Shown here piece after piece: positions 1,013 to 22,336 of a stretch of DNA of 22,347 nt; within the stretch, counting starts at the first letter, position 1; every line of letters begins with the position of its first letter. Source of the stretch: a virus. The translations under genes and the position numbers were made by a program. The stretch covers positions 1-22,347 of IMG/VR virus record IMGVR_UViG_3300003691_000058; one strand, written 5' to 3'. Under the pieces are notes generated by a model that saw only the letters and a program-made list of their open reading frames with translations, searched no databases and was not told the origin of the DNA.

Positions 1013-1474
1013 CTATAGTAAAATTATTGCGTGATTGATATTAATGAATATAGTCGTAGGATTAGTAGGCCAACCCACAACAACGCTATATCCGTTTGTA
1101 GGAGGCGTTTGAGTTAGCACGCCATTAGTACCTACAAATAAAGGGCCAGTTCCTGCCCATGACCAACCAGCATCAGTTAAAATACCCTCTGTCTGCAGAG
1201 TAACGTTTGCCCCTAAAAGACCGGTCGATATGCTAATGCCCATGACTTTAAATGCCTGCCCAACGCTGTTATTATCCGCGTACACTACCTGACCTAAATC
1301 ATCAGAGGCCAGCACCCGTAATGCAGAAATATTCTCAGCAGCTATTAACTGCAGTACTGCAGTACGATCATATAACTCTGTAAAATTAGCATTTATTTTT
1401 AAACCGCCAGATCGTAATGATTCTCCTGTACCATCATCTTCAGCAGCACCGACATTAATAACTTGCTTAGCCAT
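1013..1474 (-). CDS. Small phage tail protein with 'DDGTGESLR' N-terminal motif (153 aa)
   Basis: The N-terminus MAKQVINVGAAEDDGTGESL followed by a short 'KINANFTELY' is a recurrent opening of phage tail fibre and tail-spike proteins, thought to be a virion attachment segment. The rest (about 45-153) is a beta-rich module, with 'GPLFVGTNGVLTQTPPTNG' and a closing 'VVVGWPTNPTTIFI', similar in layout to the two genes that follow. The ATG overlaps the stop of the 1496-residue tail gene by one base (TAATG), so translational coupling is likely; only a weak Shine-Dalgarno is visible. Structural role is a family-level inference. Confidence 0.72.
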   Translation of the reverse strand: MAKQVINVGAAEDDGTGESLRSGGLKINANFTELYDRTAVLQLIAAENISALRVLASDDLGQVVYADNNSVGQAFKVMGISISTGLLGANVTLQTEGILTDAGWSWAGTGPLFVGTNGVLTQTPPTNGYSVVVGWPTNPTTIFININHAIILL

Positions 1475-4400
1475 TATTGTGGAGTCCCTGACAAGGGTGT
1501 ATCAACTGCACTTTTTATGTTAGCGTCTACTTCCCCTGGTACTGTATACGTTAGTCCACTTGTCTTAGTAACGATGGTATCAATCTTCGGAGTGTTAGCT
1601 TGAGACTCAGTAAGAATAAGACCTATAGAAGTGTTGTCAGGGACCACTGTATTAAAGCCTGTAGCAGTTAGCCAATTACCCTGATTGAGTTGCAGCTCGT
1701 TAGAGTCGGCAAGGATATCAGTTATCCCATCTATTAAGGGGCTTCTGGCAACAGTATAGCCCTGTTCAGTCATAGCATCCTTAACAGTGGCTTTATTCAC
1801 TGCTGTACCTGTATTGACTTCTACCACGCTCACACTCCCCAACCAGTTACCAATACCGACTCCATAACCTGAAGTTGTAGGCTCTCTCACTGGATAAGCT
1901 CCGTCTGATCTATATATCCGTTTTGAGTCTGTACGGTGAAATGAGGTGGCTACGTTGTTGTTAAACCATAAGGCAAGAATGGGCACCTCAATCCTATAAG
2001 CCCCTTCTAGAGCAGTTATGCCTTCCCAGAAGTTCTCTATCCCGTCCGAGGTGGTTAGCATATAGCAGTAAAAAGCGTATGCCTCATCAGATGTCCACGC
2101 ACCAGCTATTATAAAGTCAATCTCATCGTTAATGAAATCGCCAGAAAACTTATTGGTAACAGGTGCCGAAGAACCGTCTACCCCATTAATACCATATTGC
2201 AGTTGCTCATTTCCTGCATAAATTGCAGCCCAACCAGTGCTAGTAGCAATAGCAGAACCTGTCCACATTTTAAATGTTTGGTCTGTGGCCAACTCAGCAA
2301 ACCGTATCCTTATAATATCCCCTGCTGCATAAGTAGTTCCTTCGGTATACGAGTCAGAGAATCCAGTACCTCCTGGGTCTCCATCAAAGGGGGTAGTTCC
2401 TTTTGTTTCATTTTTGATCTGCAGCCAAATAGCATTACCAGCCACGGGTAAGCCCGTGATACTGGCATTAGCTGTAACGGGCTTATCATAGTAATCACCT
2501 GGAGTATCTGACTCGAACCGAGTAAAGTCAGGATGATCAGCACCTGAACGTTCAACATAGAACCCTACAGCTACAGGGGTTGCACCCTCTTTAAGTCCAT
2601 TTCCAGTCTCTATTGTCGCACCATTATAGATCACCATATCTGGCATCTCGAACCATGTCAGCCCTGTACCGCCAGATATCACGCCATTCGGATCAGCTAC
2701 CCCTTGCATGTTTATCCAGTTTGCAATGTCGGCCCCTGAGTTGTTGTTAGCATCAACCCATTTATACGCAAATGTTTTACCGCCAACTACTCCACCAGCA
2801 ACCAGTGTCATGCCAGTAATGCTTGGATCAATTCCTGTATAGCCATGGTCGGCATTTGATAGCGGGATTGTGTACAGCGTTGATTTAAGAGCTGATACGC
2901 CTGCATTAACCAACACATCTAACCGTGCCTGCTTTGAGCCAGCCAGAAATGATTTAATCAACAGATAATCATCGGTGTTACTGTCCGGCGTTCCATCATG
3001 ATTAGCGTCAGCGTAATATTGAAAAGTTTCATCAACCACATCATTTGTCAGAGTGATAGCAGTTGAATTACCGGAATTAGTGTTTCTGTAATGCGTAGTA
3101 GCTCCAGCGATATTTCCGACTGATTGGATTGAGTACCACTTTTCAATCGGGTTTAAGGAATCAAGTACGTGGAAAACTTCTGACCCAGCCCCTTTCCAGT
3201 ACTGCATATCTAATACAGTCATACCGTCAGTTTGATCGATACGGACTAGACCTGGGATAGCATCCATCAGTAACGGAGTGTTAAAGTAGCCGCTATTCAA
3301 ACGTATCAAATCAGCCATTGATGACCTAACATCAAGCGCATTCTGATCTGCTAGGATATTCAGGGCTTTCGTCACTATGTTGTATGTGTAGTGCGTTGTT
3401 ACTGCCAGTGAATGACTCGCATTATAAGCCTCATCAAAATCCATCTCGATATTTAGTGTGCCGAAAAAGGGAACTGAGTCTTGTATATTTACGGGGACAT
3501 ACCCCTCTTTTAAAACTTCAATATCTATGGGGTCTGAGGTTGAGTAGTCATAGTCAAGAGTTAACCCTGTAACGCTATCATTTGGCGTTTGATCGTCACC
3601 AGCGCCATCAAAATACCGTATGTCTGAGTTTATGCCGGGGGATATTGTGAATGTTTCCGTCGGAGCAGGAAACTGTCGCTCTACTCCACCAACGTCAGTA
3701 AATCGATAGTCTAATTGCTGCACTACCTGAAACCCATCTATTGCAACGCCTTGTGCTGTAATTAAAATATCACCTAAGAATGACATTAATAAATCAGCAG
3801 TATCCCCTCGGGTAGTACCAGCCCCTGAATCAATATCTGTTGATTGTCTCAATAAATACTGCGACTTCTCATAAATCTGCTGTGTAGTACCTGAGTTACC
3901 TGTGAATACGACATTAAACGCATAGTACACACTATCAATTGATCGCTCTCCTGAGTATGCAACCCAGTCCGTAACACCAACATCATCACCTACCCCGGTT
4001 CCACTCGACGTACCACCCAGTGCCGTGATGTACCAGCGACCACCATCTGACACCACGGAATCCGCAGCATAAACAGTTGAATTTATCCATGCATCAAATC
4101 CAGAACCAACAAGATATTCGACGGACATCCCCGTATAAATTGCAGCCACTGCTATTGTTGCATCACTTGCTGATATTTTTGGATCAGTTGAGTTAGCTAG
4201 GGGTATAAAATAGGTTTTATTGGTTAGCTCTGTTACTCCCTGATCTGCAAACAAATCATATTGCGAGTAAGTTTTCCCTTGTTCTCTTAAGAACATCTTA
4301 AACCCATCTCGCTTATCAAAGTTTCCGTGTGTCCCATCACCATAAATCTTAATAACAGTATCTTGCACATCGGTTCGCTGAGTACTCACCGGAACAGTAT

Positions 4401-5964
4401 CGACACCAAGTAAATAATAAGGTTGCCCTGCTGCCGATCCAAGAGTCTTAGCGTTTAACCACTGCTCAAGTTTTACAGCATTTGTGTCAACTAATGCCCA
4501 CCCTGCTCCACGAGTATTGTGTCTTGTAGCATCATCAGCAAAATCCCAACCTTCTATAAATTCATAAATGCCTGCCTCTGCCGATACTGCATCGAAAGGG
4601 AACTCAAAAACAGGTAGTGCTGCATCTGCTTTCCACTGTTCTATTGTGTACGAATAAATATCCTGTAATTCCTGTACTGTATCAACAGTCAGTAGACTTG
4701 TTCCTGTTGCAAAGCTGACATCACTAACTGACATTCCAGCCGTTACTGTATAATCTCTATCACTACTGATTGAAACAGGGAATGTTGCACCATCACCGTT
4801 AATGAGTGCATTAACTTTTGCGTACTCAAAATTAGGTTGTATAAATACAAATCGCGCAGTCAGCACAGCAGTAAAAGGAACATCAAATGACGCAGGATCA
4901 GCGAGCGTAGTTTCAATCCCACCAACAATCGCATCATCAGTAACCGCAAAAGCCCTGATCTCAGAACCAACAGGAACACCATCAATTGTGATTGTAACAG
5001 TGAATTCACCGGGTTGGTCTACACCAATTGAGTAGGGAAGTTCCCATGGTTGAGCGTCAATATCTAATGTTAATGACGATGATGCGTCCACGCCCGCATC
5101 TTCTAAAGGAGACCCTGCTTTTAGATGGATATTATTAGCTGTAATATCTTCGAATACAAGTAGTGGATGTGTAGTGTCTAAGTCACTTATTGATGTACCA
5201 CCGGCAGGTGCTGAGAGGTCACCGGATGCACAGTTTAAAAATGTCGGTGTAGCAACGGGTGACCAATCCCCTCCTGTATTATTAATTGCTACACAGTTAC
5301 TAAGGGAGCTACCGGCGTTTACGTTAGCGTGTATTGTGAACCCCAAACCTCCATTATTTATGGCTACACAGTTTCTATATGTTACTTGAGCATACGGGCC
5401 TGCATCAAACCCAAAGCTACCACATTCATACGCTAGGCATCCGTAAATCCTGCCAATACTCCCTGGTGAAATACCATGATTGTTATCAGATTTTACAATT
5501 AGTCGCTCTAAAATAGGCGCACCTACTATACTACTAAGTGTTACACAACCCGCCTGACTTCTAATCCTTAAACCTGTTATTCGCGTGTAACCTGTTATTC
5601 TAATTGCTATGGTGTACAGCCCTAGCCCAGTACGGAAATCAAGCATGGCCCCCGATAATACATTACCACCATGCTCATGCCCGACAGCCGCCCGTATTGT
5701 CGCAAAATTACTCACCCCGTCATGCAGGTGAAAAGAGCCTTTTATGACCGCTGATTCGACAGTATAAATACCATCATCGAATACCTCATAAAATATATTC
5801 TCTCCATTATTCGCTAGAGGTCTAGTACTCCCCCAAGTCGCATCCGCCTGTGCAGCAGTAAATGTTAAAAATCCAGCATCATAGGTAATCGTATCACCTG
5901 ATCCCGGAACAAACTCACCTGTTCTATCATGATCATTGGATATAGCAACGTATTTATCAACCAC
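1474..5964 (-). CDS. Large tail fibre/tailspike-like protein (1496 aa)
   Basis: Begins at GTG 5964-5962 (VVDKYVAISNDHDRTGEF) with GGTGAT upstream; no nearby ATG exists. Visible layout: residues about 40-275 form a probable right-handed beta-helix (repeated short rungs such as 'TRITGLRIRSQAG', 'GRIYGCLAYECGSFGF', 'YRNCVAINNGGLGF', 'LSNCVAINNTGG'). About 320-408 is a small beta-sandwich. About 415-605 and 855-1050 look like two diverged copies of one domain, each ending in 'YFIPLANSTDPKI' or 'YTIPLSNADHGYT'. About 623-670 has the spacing of a CBM5/12-like binding module (W...Y..G..V...GRWY...W). This is the longest product of the late block and sits where receptor-binding or depolymerase proteins occur in podoviruses. 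Whether the helix is enzymatic cannot be told from sequence alone. Confidence 0.85.
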   Translation of the reverse strand: MVDKYVAISNDHDRTGEFVPGSGDTITYDAGFLTFTAAQADATWGSTRPLANNGENIFYEVFDDGIYTVESAVIKGSFHLHDGVSNFATIRAAVGHEHGGNVLSGAMLDFRTGLGLYTIAIRITGYTRITGLRIRSQAGCVTLSSIVGAPILERLIVKSDNNHGISPGSIGRIYGCLAYECGSFGFDAGPYAQVTYRNCVAINNGGLGFTIHANVNAGSSLSNCVAINNTGGDWSPVATPTFLNCASGDLSAPAGGTSISDLDTTHPLLVFEDITANNIHLKAGSPLEDAGVDASSSLTLDIDAQPWELPYSIGVDQPGEFTVTITIDGVPVGSEIRAFAVTDDAIVGGIETTLADPASFDVPFTAVLTARFVFIQPNFEYAKVNALINGDGATFPVSISSDRDYTVTAGMSVSDVSFATGTSLLTVDTVQELQDIYSYTIEQWKADAALPVFEFPFDAVSAEAGIYEFIEGWDFADDATRHNTRGAGWALVDTNAVKLEQWLNAKTLGSAAGQPYYLLGVDTVPVSTQRTDVQDTVIKIYGDGTHGNFDKRDGFKMFLREQGKTYSQYDLFADQGVTELTNKTYFIPLANSTDPKISASDATIAVAAIYTGMSVEYLVGSGFDAWINSTVYAADSVVSDGGRWYITALGGTSSGTGVGDDVGVTDWVAYSGERSIDSVYYAFNVVFTGNSGTTQQIYEKSQYLLRQSTDIDSGAGTTRGDTADLLMSFLGDILITAQGVAIDGFQVVQQLDYRFTDVGGVERQFPAPTETFTISPGINSDIRYFDGAGDDQTPNDSVTGLTLDYDYSTSDPIDIEVLKEGYVPVNIQDSVPFFGTLNIEMDFDEAYNASHSLAVTTHYTYNIVTKALNILADQNALDVRSSMADLIRLNSGYFNTPLLMDAIPGLVRIDQTDGMTVLDMQYWKGAGSEVFHVLDSLNPIEKWYSIQSVGNIAGATTHYRNTNSGNSTAITLTNDVVDETFQYYADANHDGTPDSNTDDYLLIKSFLAGSKQARLDVLVNAGVSALKSTLYTIPLSNADHGYTGIDPSITGMTLVAGGVVGGKTFAYKWVDANNNSGADIANWINMQGVADPNGVISGGTGLTWFEMPDMVIYNGATIETGNGLKEGATPVAVGFYVERSGADHPDFTRFESDTPGDYYDKPVTANASITGLPVAGNAIWLQIKNETKGTTPFDGDPGGTGFSDSYTEGTTYAAGDIIRIRFAELATDQTFKMWTGSAIATSTGWAAIYAGNEQLQYGINGVDGSSAPVTNKFSGDFINDEIDFIIAGAWTSDEAYAFYCYMLTTSDGIENFWEGITALEGAYRIEVPILALWFNNNVATSFHRTDSKRIYRSDGAYPVREPTTSGYGVGIGNWLGSVSVVEVNTGTAVNKATVKDAMTEQGYTVARSPLIDGITDILADSNELQLNQGNWLTATGFNTVVPDNTSIGLILTESQANTPKIDTIVTKTSGLTYTVPGEVDANIKSAVDTPLSGTPQ

Positions 5965-5969
5965 TTATA

Positions 5970-6443
5970 TCACCATTCAAGCCTATTCAGCAGATCATAA
6001 TCATCCGTGTATTTGATTTTTAGTTCCTTTGCTCGATAAGATGTATCAACTAGCAATTTATTGGTTACATGCTGACGTTCGCATTGCAACCTTAATACTC
6101 CTGTCATCTGCGATAAGTGATAAATTCTATCAACAGGATAATCATCAATGAACTTTGCTATAGGGTGTATATGCGTATCCAGATCATCACCGTCTAGTAC
6201 CCAGTCAATAAAATCTGCCCACGTCAAAGACTCCGGCATATTGGGAGGAAAGCACTCAAATTGTCTCTGGAAAGAGTAGAAGCTAACAAGGCGGTCGATA
6301 GGGTCACGAATAAAAGCAATTTTATCAGTATTTACCGGGTCTACACTACTACCATACTCCGCCGAACGTAAAGTTTGAGAGCCACATTTAGTAATCTGCA
6401 AAACAGCTATAACACCCTTGTTAGTTTCTATTAAACTGTACAT
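5970..6443 (-). CDS. Sulfotransferase-like protein (157 aa)
   Basis: The two PAPS-binding signatures of the sulfotransferase superfamily are both visible. The 5'-phosphosulfate loop is 'ITKCGSQTL' at residues 17-25 (compare the usual PKxGSxxL/T). The 3'-phosphate motif is 'FIRDPIDRLVSFY' at 44-56, with R46 and S54 eight residues apart as in the family. Sulfotransferases move a sulfuryl group from PAPS to a hydroxyl or amine, often on a carbohydrate. At 157 residues this is shorter than typical enzymes (roughly 200-300), so it may be a minimal or divergent version; no catalytic histidine or glutamate can be assigned with certainty. It lies between virion genes, 5 nt before the giant tail gene. 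Substrate unknown; a host surface glycan, virion glycan or capsule precursor are possibilities (inference). Confidence 0.72.
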   Translation of the reverse strand: MYSLIETNKGVIAVLQITKCGSQTLRSAEYGSSVDPVNTDKIAFIRDPIDRLVSFYSFQRQFECFPPNMPESLTWADFIDWVLDGDDLDTHIHPIAKFIDDYPVDRIYHLSQMTGVLRLQCERQHVTNKLLVDTSYRAKELKIKYTDDYDLLNRLEW

Positions 6444-6471: not shown

Positions 6472-6843
6472 TCACCCCTTCTTAGCCCAGACGCCGACAC
6501 CCAAGATAAATACAGCTTGGAGCAAATGCAGTAGCCAGTTTACAGCCCTCCCTCTTCCAGTTGAGACTACCTCAAGTGTGGTAATACGCTTTTCGTCTTT
6601 TTGCCTATTTAATTTAATAGTGTTTATTTCTATTTCGCACCCGACTTTACAGGTCTTTAATTCTCCCCCTATCCTAGTAATTGTTAGCCGGTCATCATTC
6701 TGCCTTTCATTGAGTACAGCAACAGAGGCTTTCATATCAGAGGCAACCTGGCCTAACGTATCAATTTTACTGAACAGGACTTTATTACCGTCTATTAACT
6801 GCTGGATAAGGATTGATTCTTGAGTCACTGTTATATTCCGCAT
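6472..6843 (-). CDS. Coiled-coil protein with C-terminal membrane segment (123 aa)
   Basis: The N-terminal 90 residues are hydrophilic with heptad-like leucine/isoleucine spacing (for example 'LIQQLIDGNKVLFSKIDTLG', 'IEINTIKLNRQKDEKRITTL'), suggesting a coiled coil. A hydrophobic stretch near the C-terminus ('VNWLLHLLQAVFILGVGVW') is followed by a short lysine tail (AKKG). This layout resembles XhlA-type hemolysin/holin accessory proteins, where a coiled coil precedes one membrane helix, but XhlA is usually shorter and the match is by architecture only. Its start overlaps the adaptor stop by one base (TAATG). It could be a membrane-anchored lysis or DNA-ejection accessory; function is not established. 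Confidence 0.62.
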   Translation of the reverse strand: MRNITVTQESILIQQLIDGNKVLFSKIDTLGQVASDMKASVAVLNERQNDDRLTITRIGGELKTCKVGCEIEINTIKLNRQKDEKRITTLEVVSTGRGRAVNWLLHLLQAVFILGVGVWAKKG

Positions 6844-7544
6844 TAACCGTTTTCAGACTGAACAAAACCCACCCCAGGAGGAGGAGTAAGAAGGCGAACT
6901 TGCATACGAAGTGCAGTTTGTAGAAGTAGTGCTGCCCTTGCTATTCGCTTCTGCCACACAAGCTGTTTTAATGCAACAGCTTCTTTGTCATAAAGTTCTT
7001 GATCAGGAACATCGTATAAATAAGCACAAGCTCCAATCACAAGATCAGAATGATAAGGAGAGGGAATTTCGGCAAGCACCTCCGGTCCAAGACCTATTTG
7101 CGCTGTAGGTAATCGATAATAATCAAGAGTTATAGTGACATTAGCTGCAGGTTTTGGAATAAGATTCAATGCCTGTACACCATAATTAGGCAGGCAAAAT
7201 GTTGGAGTACCTGTAGTTGTACGCCAGCCAGTATACCGTGTTGAGGCTTCAACCCCTTCTATCCCAAAATAACCAAAGTCCAATTCGTGCTGAGTTACAA
7301 TACGTAAAGGCGTGCCTATACTCACAGACGTTACCCACAAAATCCCATCAGATAATGGAATAATCCCAGTAACTGCCCCATCTGTAATCTCGGCACTCCC
7401 GGTAAACAAACACAGAGTCTGCCGCGCAAACTCATCTTGTGCATCATTAAGCGCCGTTAAAACTTCAGCATCAGAAAAACTGTAGGGCGTTATCTTATCG
7501 TCCATCTTCAAACGCACTTGATCAATTAGAGCCTGTGTGTTCAT
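6843..7544 (-). CDS. Phage head-tail adaptor-like protein 2 (233 aa)
   Basis: The N-terminal helices (MNTQALIDQVRLKMDDKITP, then 'SDAEVLTALNDAQDEFAR') are typical of phage adaptor/connector proteins that sit under the portal and begin the neck. A central beta region (about 45-150) precedes a C-terminal helical segment ('EIPSPYHSDLVIGACAYLYD', then 'ALKQLVWQKRIARAALLL'). The overall plan matches the preceding 216-residue protein, so the pair appears to be diverged tandem paralogues. Start and upstream stop overlap (ATGA), indicating coupled translation. Role inferred from family architecture and position between capsid and tail genes. Confidence 0.72.
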   Translation of the reverse strand: MNTQALIDQVRLKMDDKITPYSFSDAEVLTALNDAQDEFARQTLCLFTGSAEITDGAVTGIIPLSDGILWVTSVSIGTPLRIVTQHELDFGYFGIEGVEASTRYTGWRTTTGTPTFCLPNYGVQALNLIPKPAANVTITLDYYRLPTAQIGLGPEVLAEIPSPYHSDLVIGACAYLYDVPDQELYDKEAVALKQLVWQKRIARAALLLQTALRMQVRLLTPPPGVGFVQSENG

Positions 7545-16289: not shown

Positions 16290-16759
16290 ACCGACCCCTC
16301 CGCAATTTCATCGAAAGAATGAACCAAACTGGCTATTGGAGTAGCCCCCGTAAGGCGCAGGCATATTGTGCAAGCCATAACAGGCCCAAGTCCTACAGCC
16401 TCCAGCAGACTACGATAAAGATTCAATTGATCCGTAGTATCTACCCAAGTCTGTTTAACCTCGAACAACAACACACTTTTACTTGGAAAGATCATAAAAT
16501 AATCAGGTTGATAATATCGTCCATCAGCTTCGATCCAAATGTGACTATATAAATCAGCCCCCAAAGGTTTAGCAAGTTTCGCCAACTCCTCTCCTATCCG
16601 ATTCTCATAACGCATCCCTGCTTTTTGAGCTACAGTCCCAGAAGGGCGCTGTAAATCCTGTCTAGGAGAAATACGAACAGAGTACCATTCTTTCACCTCC
16701 CGTTTCTTTTGTGCAATGTGATGGATAGGGGGAGCGAATAAGGAAGCCGGAATACCCAT
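16271..16759 (-). CDS. PD-(D/E)XK nuclease-like protein (162 aa)
   Basis: The core of a restriction-endonuclease-like fold is visible: an N-terminal helix with E52 ('GMRYENRIGEELAKLAK'), then D86 in 'YYQPDYFMIF', then E100 and K102 in 'VLLFEVKQTW', followed by Q111 in 'QLNLYRSLLE'. Spacing D-x13-E-x-K matches PD-(D/E)XK enzymes. ATG overlaps the holin stop (TAATG), with Shine-Dalgarno AGGGGAA. It overlaps the small terminase by 19 nt. Such enzymes in phages include Holliday-junction resolvases, replication endonucleases and packaging-associated nucleases; which one applies here is unknown. Its place between lysis and terminase suggests late expression and a role in processing DNA before or during packaging (inference). 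Confidence 0.78.
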   Translation of the reverse strand: MGIPASLFAPPIHHIAQKKREVKEWYSVRISPRQDLQRPSGTVAQKAGMRYENRIGEELAKLAKPLGADLYSHIWIEADGRYYQPDYFMIFPSKSVLLFEVKQTWVDTTDQLNLYRSLLEAVGLGPVMACTICLRLTGATPIASLVHSFDEIAEGSVWQVRV

Positions 16760-17172
16760 TAGTTCCCCTGCTTCACATTTGCATAGTTAACCCCGAAGCT
16801 TGCGCTTACGATAGCCGTCCAAGACCCTGTTATAGGGAGGAACAAATTCGCCATTGCATGGACTGCTTCGGCAATAACCTCTTTCTGCATAGTGATAACA
16901 GCCAGCGAGGCTGCATTCGCCTCCCCTGCAACAAAGAAGGAAAAACCTGCATAGAAAAATATCAAGATTACCGTCGAACCAAGGTAGAAAGCATAAGCCC
17001 GACTAGCGAACAAGGCTAAATCCCTGCGCATCTTCCCATTCGGGTCGAGTGCTTTAATCATGAGAGTGTTGGCTTCTGCAGTCTCCCCCGCAGTATCGAT
17101 ATACTCCAGTGCTACGTTTTCAAGGGATTTAGTTAATCCACTACCCCCAAGTAAAGTGCTAAAGAGCCCCAT
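16759..17172 (-). CDS. Holin, probable 3TM type (137 aa)
   Basis: Begins MGLFSTLLGGSGLTKSLENV with Shine-Dalgarno GGAGAG. Hydrophobic segments lie at about 53-82 ('AYAFYLGSTVILIFFYAGFS') and 104-128 ('HAMANLFLPITGSWTAIVSA'). A charged 'NGKMRRDLALFASRAY' lies before the first and a short polar tail (NYANVKQGN) at the end. This layout fits the GTA-type three-helix holin family. It would form lesions in the inner membrane and release the adjacent endopeptidase. Start overlaps the endopeptidase stop by one base. The number of membrane helices needs a predictor; the holin call comes from architecture and neighbours. Confidence 0.8.
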   Translation of the reverse strand: MGLFSTLLGGSGLTKSLENVALEYIDTAGETAEANTLMIKALDPNGKMRRDLALFASRAYAFYLGSTVILIFFYAGFSFFVAGEANAASLAVITMQKEVIAEAVHAMANLFLPITGSWTAIVSASFGVNYANVKQGN

Positions 17173-17558
17173 TACACTCTCTCCACATGAGGCATGTCAG
17201 TAAAGGAGCGAAACAATCCGCCCCAGCGGATATCGATCCGCATCTCTCCTGCAGCCTGAAGGAATGCAGCGGCGATTTGCGCAAGATGCTCCTTCTCCCA
17301 CGAGGCCTTTCCATCCACATAGGCATAGAAATCGAGTGCATTACCCGTTTGGTGCTTACCTATTTCGTCAAGCCCGTCTGCTTTTGACTTACCTGCTTTA
17401 TATAGCTCATTCTGCTGCATAGCCGTTCGACGACCGCCGGTGCTTGGAATCCCGAAATCGACCTTAGTAAGCTCAATTGCCCGAAGCGCAAGCGCTTGGA
17501 GGTCGGAGTGTGCACCTGACATATTCTTTTTTGAGGTAGTGCTAAGGAAGAATTTCAT
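17172..17558 (-). CDS. Endolysin, M15 family peptidoglycan peptidase (128 aa)
   Basis: The zinc-binding and catalytic pattern of M15/VanY-type peptidases is visible: 'GKHQTGNALDFYAY' gives H69 and D76 (HxxGxAxD), and 'DMPHVE' gives D121, H124 and E125. At 128 residues it is close to the T5-type L-alanyl-D-glutamate endopeptidase size (137). It cleaves peptide cross-bridges of peptidoglycan at the end of infection. There is no signal peptide, so export would rely on the holin encoded next, which overlaps by one base. Start at ATG 17558-17556 overlaps the stop of the small upstream ORF (ATGA), suggesting coupling. No spanin gene was recognised nearby. Confidence 0.88.
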   Translation of the reverse strand: MKFFLSTTSKKNMSGAHSDLQALALRAIELTKVDFGIPSTGGRRTAMQQNELYKAGKSKADGLDEIGKHQTGNALDFYAYVDGKASWEKEHLAQIAAAFLQAAGEMRIDIRWGGLFRSFTDMPHVERV

Positions 17559-17769: not shown

Positions 17770-20265
17770 TTATGGTTCACTAACAGCCTGAAGTGCATCA
17801 GTCGTTACTACCATAGTTACCTCCTGGGGAAACAAAGTATAATATTCTAAATAGAATGGATTCAACACAGCATCTGCAAGGAATAAATAATATAAAAATT
17901 CATAAGATGCGAAATCATTATAAAGTATCTTACTTCCGTAGTTAGCTGTAAAAGCGGTCAAGGCACCTTCAGCTGCGGCGAGCAAACTTAAATCACCTTC
18001 AGTTAAATCTGCTGCATCTTTCGTATCTAGAGCTAGATTAACCACCTCCCTATGATGACGCATAAAACCGATTAAAGCTATTTGAAAGTCTATACTCCAA
18101 ATTAAATCACAATGTCCTATTTGGTTGAAGGCTAAGTCAACCAAATAGATTCGATGGAAGCGCTCAGCATTAGGGGGGATAGAGAAATTCGATTGATACT
18201 TAATCGGATTGGAAAGTACATTGATACCAGGAACAAACTGAACATTAATATAGGGATTAATATTAAAATGATTAGTAGCCCCTACAAACATCCTAACCAT
18301 ACTAGTGAGGTCGTAACCTGCATATTGTCTGAAAGTGGGAGTAATTTCTCCCCACAGAGTATCAAACAGAAATAAAACCGAAGGATAGTTCTCCATATCA
18401 TTAAAACCTCCACCTGTACTTGTATTCGTCCTTTTAGATGTAAGTTGCCAAGCTGCAGTACTTTCAAAATCCTGCCCTGTTTCAATAGTAGCAATGGGGT
18501 CGATGGTAGAAAGAAAAGCTAGAAGAGAATTGATGTCAGTGATATTTGCTGCTATTTGCTCTTTTGACACTATATAAGTATCTACTACCGTATCAGGAGT
18601 TGTCCTAAAAATCGAGGCATAATCCGTTTGGAGAAAACCAGTTTCTTTACGTACTATCAACTCACCGAAGTAAGAGAAGCAGATTGTATATGCTGTTAAG
18701 TCACTTTCAGGAGATAGCCCACTAAGTGTGCCTGTGCTAAAGCCGCCATTCCAAATATGACCTACTGTATAAGGAGTTTCATATCCATTAAAAACTATCT
18801 TTCCGTACATTGTATGTACCTGATCTCCTGGGAAGCTAGGGTTAACAGATATCAAGGGCATTTGCGCTGTTTTGATCTCGGGCAGTGCAGCTGCCTTAAA
18901 GATGAAATTAGCAACACCAGGTAATAGAGGTTGTGCTAGCCCTTCTGTATAGTCTGCTTCATCTATTGTCCTGTAATAGTCAAGCCCGTCACTTACATTG
19001 TAAAAATGAGCAATAGGATGGTAGCCCGTGTAGCCAGGGCCAGTAACTAACTGCTGTGCCTCTGCAGTAACATAAGATGGAGTGTTGTAGTCTGTTAAAT
19101 AACGCCGCCCTGTAGTTACTATGAAGTTAATATTTAGCTCAACCGCAGAGTCAAAACTTATAAACTCGCCTTCTATTGTGAAAGCCGAGCTAAAAATGTG
19201 TACACCATAGAAAGGGAATATAAAATGATTTTGATAAGTAGGTTTATTTTTCAGCTCGGTTCCGTCGAAGTAAAAAGTTAAATAAGGAGGATAGTGAGCA
19301 CCATACCTATCAGCCTGCTCAAGCGGTACATCAAAAACATACCTCAAATCCCCTGGTTCAATATCTTCTAGGGGTGGAGGTTCAGCATCCCAGAACTGTG
19401 GAACCGAGACATCAATATACTTAACGGAGTCATACTGGACTTGCCCTATAAAATTAATAACGTAGGGGTGTTCGGGATCAAGTGTATCGAATAGCTCAGG
19501 AACAGGAGCATAAACAGCTGCAGGATCTTCATCGTTACTATCGAGCACATTAAAGTCTAGATAGGGGTTATCATAGTAATTTAGTAGTGCAATATTCGGA
19601 ACTAGCCCATAATCACTTATCGGCTGAATAGTAGCATCAGTTTGTGCATAAAAAGCACCTAAAGCAATCACTAGCGCTTTTATGGTAATCCGCTTCTCGA
19701 GCGTATCCGGTTTCGCATTATAATCAAGGAACAGTTGACGTAATTTCTCCCCATATATAGCCTTTGGAAATGGGTAAGGAATAAGAAACCCACCTTGTAA
19801 GATATTCAACTTCAGGGTTATATCCGTAACGCAGAGCAAGTGCGAATAAACAAGTCCACTATTATTAGGAATTTCATTAAAGGTGTTACAGAGAGCTATT
19901 TCGGGAAGGGCAAGCGGAAACTCGACCTCGGTCTGCTGTACAATCTTCAGTACCTGGGCAGTGCTCCCTTGAAAAAACTTACTCCCCTTCCATGGTTTCC
20001 GAATTCCTGCAGTTTCTTCTAAATAGCGATTTGTGATTAAAGGCCCTCCACCTCCCAGCACTAAAAAGTCATACTTCACTGCATAGATAACAATGATTAA
20101 GTTCTGGGGAATAAGGAAAAGCAGGACGTAGAGGTCTTTAAAGCCGACCATTGCTTTCTTCTTTCCTGCTCCCTTAAACGCTATGAAGAGTCCTCGTCCA
20201 TAGCCCTCCAGCTCTTTCCGCTCTTCCTCAAATAAATCTCCATCGGGGTATGCAAAGACAGTCAT
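17770..20265 (-). CDS. Unrecognised large protein, first gene of late block (831 aa)
   Basis: Start chosen at ATG 20265-20263 (MTVFAYPDGDLFEEERKELE), because AGGTG lies 6 nt upstream; an in-frame GTG at 20274 would put that Shine-Dalgarno too close. A short hydrophobic stretch near residues 40-75 ('FKDLYVLLFLIPQNLIIVIY') is followed by 'YDFLVLGGGGPLITNRYLEE'. The remaining 750 residues are rich in Tyr, Phe and Pro with many short beta-like segments and no cysteine pattern, catalytic motif or repeat that I recognise. It is about 20 nt downstream of the predicted late promoter, so it should be strongly expressed. A virion structural or ejected internal protein is a reasonable guess, not a finding. 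It is more AT-rich than the head genes. Confidence 0.75.
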   Translation of the reverse strand: MTVFAYPDGDLFEEERKELEGYGRGLFIAFKGAGKKKAMVGFKDLYVLLFLIPQNLIIVIYAVKYDFLVLGGGGPLITNRYLEETAGIRKPWKGSKFFQGSTAQVLKIVQQTEVEFPLALPEIALCNTFNEIPNNSGLVYSHLLCVTDITLKLNILQGGFLIPYPFPKAIYGEKLRQLFLDYNAKPDTLEKRITIKALVIALGAFYAQTDATIQPISDYGLVPNIALLNYYDNPYLDFNVLDSNDEDPAAVYAPVPELFDTLDPEHPYVINFIGQVQYDSVKYIDVSVPQFWDAEPPPLEDIEPGDLRYVFDVPLEQADRYGAHYPPYLTFYFDGTELKNKPTYQNHFIFPFYGVHIFSSAFTIEGEFISFDSAVELNINFIVTTGRRYLTDYNTPSYVTAEAQQLVTGPGYTGYHPIAHFYNVSDGLDYYRTIDEADYTEGLAQPLLPGVANFIFKAAALPEIKTAQMPLISVNPSFPGDQVHTMYGKIVFNGYETPYTVGHIWNGGFSTGTLSGLSPESDLTAYTICFSYFGELIVRKETGFLQTDYASIFRTTPDTVVDTYIVSKEQIAANITDINSLLAFLSTIDPIATIETGQDFESTAAWQLTSKRTNTSTGGGFNDMENYPSVLFLFDTLWGEITPTFRQYAGYDLTSMVRMFVGATNHFNINPYINVQFVPGINVLSNPIKYQSNFSIPPNAERFHRIYLVDLAFNQIGHCDLIWSIDFQIALIGFMRHHREVVNLALDTKDAADLTEGDLSLLAAAEGALTAFTANYGSKILYNDFASYEFLYYLFLADAVLNPFYLEYYTLFPQEVTMVVTTDALQAVSEP

Positions 20266-20290
20266 AACACTCACCTATTAACTTTCGGGT

Positions 20291-22112: not shown

Positions 22113-22292
22113 AACAACCAATACAACCGCCCCACTACCAACCACCGACCAATACAACCAAAACAACCAATCCCCGTTTCGCCAACACACATAAATACCC
22201 TCCTCTCAGCTGCCGCAGGCTCCGTACATACACGCCCCTATAGGGAGTCCTATTTACGAGCAATACGGAGAGAAAAAGAGAGAGTGTTATAG
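22104..22292 (+). CDS. Doubtful small ORF (62 aa)
   Basis: ATG 22104 has no Shine-Dalgarno. The first half is Asn/Gln/Pro-rich (MYENNQYNRPTTNHRPIQPK), reflecting CAACCAAT-like DNA repeats (ACCAATACAACC at 22117-22128 and 22148-22159). The second half looks more protein-like, 'HINTLLSAAAGSVHTRPYRE' then 'SYLRAIRREKERVL'. It may be a real small protein or chance coding in low-complexity DNA; I lean to the latter. Confidence 0.25.
   Translation: MYENNQYNRPTTNHRPIQPKQPIPVSPTHINTLLSAAAGSVHTRPYRESYLRAIRREKERVL
22226..22248 (+). promoter_or_regulatory. Weak T7-like promoter resemblance
   Basis: CTATAGGGAG (22238-22247) with ATAC at 22228-22231 matches the T7 phage consensus at 10 of 17 upstream and 5 of 6 downstream positions, but not in the specificity region. 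CCCTATAGGG is itself a palindrome, so chance is likely. Confidence 0.15.
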
Positions 22293-22336
22293 AATATATA
22301 TATATATATATATATATACTAACTACCACTCTCTCT
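22277..22336. repeat. (AT)12 tract flanked by inverted GA/CT repeats
   Basis: Alternating AT from 22294 to 22318 lies between AGAGAGAGTG (22277-22286) and its exact complement CACTCTCTCT (22327-22336). The structure could extrude as a cruciform. Its position next to the window end also allows an assembly-edge artefact. Confidence 0.75.

Follow-up and report, generated by a model that had tools for sequence, protein, structure and literature searches.

What is a sulfotransferase-like gene doing among the structural genes of a short-tailed phage, and what would its product sulfate? The question is raised by an open reading frame (ORF) at 5970..6443 on the minus strand of a virus fragment from an uncultured short-tailed (podovirus-like) phage. 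The record is incomplete and comes without a host genome; its whole length of 22,347 bases was analysed and is called the window here. An earlier note, made from the letters of this DNA, had given the ORF as 157 residues, which is exact, and had placed it directly before a giant tail gene.

The locus and its late operon

The ORF lies in a minus-strand late block with the order large terminase, portal, scaffold-position ORF, major capsid protein, SU10-type adaptor, 123-residue ORF, ORF 5970..6443 and 1496-residue ORF. The head–tail adaptor (6843..7544, minus strand) matches SU10_adaptor (PF24175; 63.5 bits in Pfam). The upstream neighbour in the ORF list (6472..6843, minus strand) encodes 123 residues with a C-terminal hydrophobic stretch, and has no Pfam family above the cut-off and no PHROG match. 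The downstream neighbour (1474..5964, minus strand, GTG start) is tail-like: it has a weak β-helix match in Pfam (22.2 bits against a cut-off of 25.9) and shares 24–28% identity with the same-position genes of two related phages. The described placement therefore stands as regards the structural block and the 5 bp that separate the ORF from the GTG of the 1496-residue ORF, whereas the tail assignment of the latter is likely rather than proven. A search for relatives of the N-terminus of the 1496-residue protein found none, so that the neighbourhood could not be traced through the tail gene. The gap on the other side, to the 123-residue ORF, is 28 bp. A consensus scan found no promoter-like or terminator-like site flanking the ORF; with nothing promoter-like in the interval to the upstream gene, late expression of the ORF is probable. 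No RNA families were found in the window.

Several other features of the window were recorded. Upstream of the terminase block is a large ORF of 834 residues (17770–20274, minus strand) with no PHROG or Pfam match. A probable endolysin is encoded at 17172–17558 (minus strand; M15-type peptidase, PF13539, 26.8 bits against a cut-off of 25), followed by a 137-residue ORF, a possible holin gene in view of its hydrophobic stretches (16759–17172, minus strand). The putative lysis genes are on the terminase side here, whereas in two relatives (L004 and L010) lysis-like ORFs occupy the slot taken by the sulfotransferase gene in this phage. Close to the end of the record is a TA-rich simple repeat (22280–22329), the antisense ORF of which reads IYIYIYIY.

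Assignment to the Sulfotransfer_2 family

The 157-residue protein matches Sulfotransfer_2 (PF03567) above the curated gathering cut-off (28.6 bits against 22, E = 1.9e-6), with the match spanning residues 40–114 only; the score for PF00685 was 21.7 bits (cut-off 22). A profile was also built from 21 other viral members, two of which (L046 and L047) came from an alignment query and the remainder from DNA patterns for the 3'-phosphate motif. With this profile the protein scored 43.3 bits, compared with 11.5 for the best of 20,000 shuffles and 1.4 for the second-best ORF of the window, the rows of the profile having been aligned with the window protein present, which introduces a mild bias. A chance occurrence of the motifs is ruled out by this shuffle control. 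All 22 aligned viral proteins match PF03567, and a profile of the 22 searched against the PDB retrieved heparan sulfate 2-O-sulfotransferase (E = 1.5e-8) and 6-O-sulfotransferase (E = 1.5e-5). NCBIfam and PHROGs gave no confident family for the protein. A truncation through a missed upstream start is ruled out by an in-frame stop three codons above the ATG, in an open frame of 159 codons. Judged from its sequence, the ORF almost certainly belongs to the Sulfotransfer_2 family, as the sulfotransferase-like reading had proposed.

The protein shares with this family, which includes the heparan sulfate 2-O-, chondroitin and HNK-1 type carbohydrate sulfotransferases, the PSB lysine, the PXXRXXS site and, in the predicted structure, the order of strands and helices. 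It differs in its small size, with 157 residues against 252 profile positions and an interval of only 27 residues from the motif lysine to the motif arginine. The suggestion that it is a minimal family member was borne out: it is the shortest full-length protein among the 25 compared (the next has 174 residues), and in the same comparison the PSB lysine and the 3'-phosphate arginine are 32 residues apart in the next protein and 41 or more in the others. One viral protein (L061) is shorter, at 143 residues, but is without the first motif. With both cofactor motifs retained, the window protein can hardly be much smaller, and its size is of interest for a minimal PAPS-binding fold.

PAPS motifs, predicted structure and candidate catalytic residues

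Translation confirmed that both PAPS-binding motifs are intact. The 5'-phosphosulfate (PAPS) loop is formed by residues 17–25 (ITKCGSQTL; 6369..6395, minus strand) with K19, G21 and S22, and K19 is nearly invariant in the 22-sequence alignment. The 3'-phosphate site comprises residues 44–56 (FIRDPIDRLVSFY; 6276..6314, minus strand) with R46, P48, R51, S54 and Y56. This second motif is invariant in the alignment, partly by construction because most members were retrieved through it; the conservation of K19 and of D148 does not stem from the search in this way.

The base of HS2ST is a histidine between the two PAPS motifs; the window protein has no histidine in that interval. It also has a serine, S111, at the position of a glutamate found in nearly all homologues, the column being uncertain at about 20% identity. 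Candidate catalytic or acceptor-site histidines, from the alignment, would be those of H91-I92-H93 (6165..6173, minus strand), of which H91 falls in a column that has a histidine in roughly half of the homologues, with the same uncertainty of column assignment at about 20% identity. In the PF03567 family the 3'-phosphate consensus is PXXRXXS, which reads P48-I-D-R51-L-V-S54 here, and the catalytic base lies outside the conserved regions (PMC11625862); S111 and the missing inter-motif histidine therefore neither prove nor exclude activity.

An AlphaFold2 model based on the 22-row alignment (pLDDT 76, pTM 0.71) contains both PAPS half-sites, as strand 11–15, loop and helix 22–28 and as strand 40–45, turn and helix 48–62, so that the PAPS-loop site is present in the predicted structure. 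The placement of side chains around the pocket is inferred from this topology. Beyond the half-sites the model has helices 75–83 and 95–101, strand 106–109 and helix 110–123, and residues 138–152 are unreliable. Folding without an alignment gave no usable model (pLDDT 30), and the fold evidence thus depends on the alignment. In a Foldseek search against the PDB, PAPS sulfotransferases took the first 21 places, with weak scores (E of at least 0.03, TM about 0.4). Against viral models the best match was a Fadolivirus 'carbohydrate sulfotransferase 8-10' and the second was SIO1 Gp5.1, with E about 3e-4.

These features bear on whether the fold is still catalytic. A degenerate or repurposed protein, for example one that binds PAP or serves as a virion or assembly protein, could account for the very short chain, the serine at the glutamate position, the lack of an inter-motif histidine and the poorly modelled C-terminal region. 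Against this, all of the residues that define the PAPS site are kept in an intact frame, and related phage genes of nearly the same size (the CBW1004C type described below) are under purifying selection. Loss of catalysis appears improbable, and by its sequence the protein is probably an active enzyme.

An accessory gene in a variable slot

The major capsid protein as a query retrieved 41 loci. Phages with a 73–80% identical capsid protein and the region visible have the order adaptor, small genes and tail-like genes, with other ORFs in the slot. A search over the full length of 20 records, related or of the same capsid type and in many cases fragments, found no PF03567 gene. In this lineage the gene is therefore an accessory one, missing from relatives in which other small genes occupy its slot. 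The expectation that related phages would carry the same gene beside tail genes thus failed for the phage's own relatives; it is unrelated phages that have other PF03567 genes beside structural genes. As in a moron (an autonomous accessory gene), near relatives lack the gene at this place, but the consensus scan showed no promoter-like or terminator-like site of its own at its flanks. Its G+C content of 39.2% is the lowest among 20 genes compared, which hints weakly at a foreign origin. Searches of IMG/VR gave no close homologue, and annotated phage and plasmid records only weak, partial matches. Picocyanobacterial genomes encode larger PF03567 proteins (open frames of 220–352 residues) and were rejected as a near source of the gene.

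Phage-borne members of the PAPS sulfotransferase superfamily also include the galactose-3-O-sulfotransferase of PHROG 3347, Sulfotransfer_3 (PF13469) proteins of OM43 phages and SIO1 Gp5.1; the match of phrog_3347 to the window protein has an E of 0.088 only, and PF13469 is absent from the Pfam matches of the latter. Phage sulfotransferases are known, with a function stated as unclear (PMC10580990), and the literature mostly describes them as auxiliary metabolic genes (PMC10580990, PMC8290583, PMC10829341). The gene might accordingly be general metabolic or lysogenic-conversion cargo: its product would sulfate a host molecule, the host or lysogen would profit, and phage adsorption would not be directly involved. 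One of the phages with a related gene, CBW1004C-Prop1, is named as a prophage. Such a role is unlikely for a gene that is packed tightly into a late block and shows neither a promoter nor a terminator of its own, since this block would be silent in a lysogen; in addition, no integrase was recognised in the (incomplete) fragment. Of the three roles suggested in the earlier note, a superinfection block and a modified virion glycan would fit the late-operon position better than metabolic cargo.

Homologues in other phages and bacteria

The best pairwise relatives of the window protein in the viral set are gp47 of CBW1004C-Prop1 and its counterparts in the IMG/VR loci L046 and L047 (sulfotransferase family 2, 174–176 residues; about 27% identity over about 100–118 residues). 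They are likewise compact, and their genes stand alone, packed into a podophage virion operon. These lie directly behind a capsid-position ORF and before stabilisation genes, between the capsid ORF and the adaptor position, whereas the window gene lies between the adaptor and the tail gene. The neighbouring ORF is called capsid on the basis of its position and of homologous ORFs of 365–367 residues. The relatives keep the glutamate that is S111 in the window protein. Within the group the sulfotransferases are 94–97% identical with dN/dS of 0.10–0.28, values indicating that they are kept by selection, and they are perhaps exchanged between phages. When L046 (4587–6214) and L047 (380–2001) are compared, the capsid-position ORFs are 80% identical and the adjoining sulfotransferases at least 94%, which suggests either that recombination took place where the two genes meet or that the sulfotransferase is the more constrained of the two.

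Further PF03567 genes were located among structural genes. In L057 the gene is flanked by a tail protein on one side and minor tail proteins on the other, in L063 it overlaps a tail terminator, in L062 it follows a tail fibre and a 308-residue ORF, and in L066 it separates terminase from portal. The L070 gene is upstream of a capsid gene (PF13252) and of terminase-position and portal-position genes, that of L078 comes directly after a prohead protease, and that of L075 is next to an endolysin. Other PF03567 genes accompany glycosyltransferases (L060/L068 and L071), lie in what reads from sequence as a sugar-gene cluster of a large phage (L055) or follow a ribonucleotide reductase (L054). Two large phage contigs each have two PF03567 genes close together (L065, 3037–4340; L067, 1532–3505); a phage can thus have more than one such gene. 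In picocyanobacteria (L052/L053), homologues lie amid ORFs that resemble glucose-1-phosphate thymidylyltransferase and dTDP-4-dehydrorhamnose reductase, a setting that reads as a dTDP-sugar cluster for envelope polysaccharide.

These placements bear on the main rival to a host-directed enzyme, namely that it sulfates the phage's own virion, on a tyrosine or glycan of the adjacent tail protein or of the capsid, and so alters charge, stability or adsorption. To our knowledge, sulfation of phage particles has not been reported. The position of the gene just ahead of the tail-like gene is what would be expected, as are homologues in unrelated phages directly behind a capsid ORF, a prohead protease or tail genes, often with no glycosyltransferase near. 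No excess of such placements over chance is claimed, since the sample is small and was gathered with motif patterns, and virion modules make up a large part of phage genomes. Moreover, close relatives with similar structural genes do without a sulfotransferase gene, and PF03567 members of known function are understood to act on carbohydrates (see the review PMC11625862). Virion sulfation is on balance rather unlikely. The wider proposition, that minimal PAPS sulfotransferases have been taken into the virion operons of unrelated tailed phages again and again because they sulfate a tail or capsid protein or a glycan on it, is quite improbable. General cargo and a dead enzyme are each less likely than sulfation of a host glycan or of the virion.

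Proposed function

The reading that we tentatively prefer, at somewhat less than even confidence in the whole, is that the gene encodes a PAPS-dependent carbohydrate sulfotransferase that is expressed late, stays in the cytosol and acts on precursors of host envelope glycans, with activity, acceptor, timing and benefit all inferred. A carbohydrate acceptor can be put forward with reasonable to good confidence, and the host envelope is fairly likely to be the target rather than the virion. A podovirus-like lineage would have acquired a single accessory gene in the variable slot between head–tail adaptor and tail gene, to be expressed together with the late operon. The enzyme would bind host-made PAPS through K19, G21 and S22 and through R46 and S54, and transfer the sulfuryl group to a hydroxyl of the acceptor sugar. 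As the protein has no obvious signal, export or membrane segment, it would act in the cytosol, on the precursors of the envelope polysaccharide. Receptor glycan exported late in infection would then be sulfated and capture less phage, and the benefit would be a block to superinfection and fewer progeny lost to a dying host.

The family, the predicted cytosolic location, the probable late expression and the bacterial homologues in what reads as an envelope-polysaccharide cluster (L052/L053) together favour this host-glycan reading. It is also consistent with the phage homologues beside glycosyltransferases (L060/L068, L071) and with the best viral fold match being annotated as carbohydrate sulfotransferase 8-10. 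Counting against it, the phage has no known acceptor, host or glycosyltransferase gene, and a late gene comes late for superinfection exclusion. S111, the missing inter-motif histidine, the poorly modelled residues 138–152, the weak PDB fold matches and the lack of a close homologue weigh on the same side.

The gene is genuine and compact, both its family and its type of setting, that of a phage accessory gene, are known, and it is ordinary in kind; the pattern of late-operon placement is modestly interesting. Together with its counterparts in the late operons of unrelated phages, it forms a concrete, testable set for the question of whether a host glycan or the virion is sulfated late in infection. 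The answer would either add sulfation to the tricks by which phages change receptors or reveal a new virion modification.
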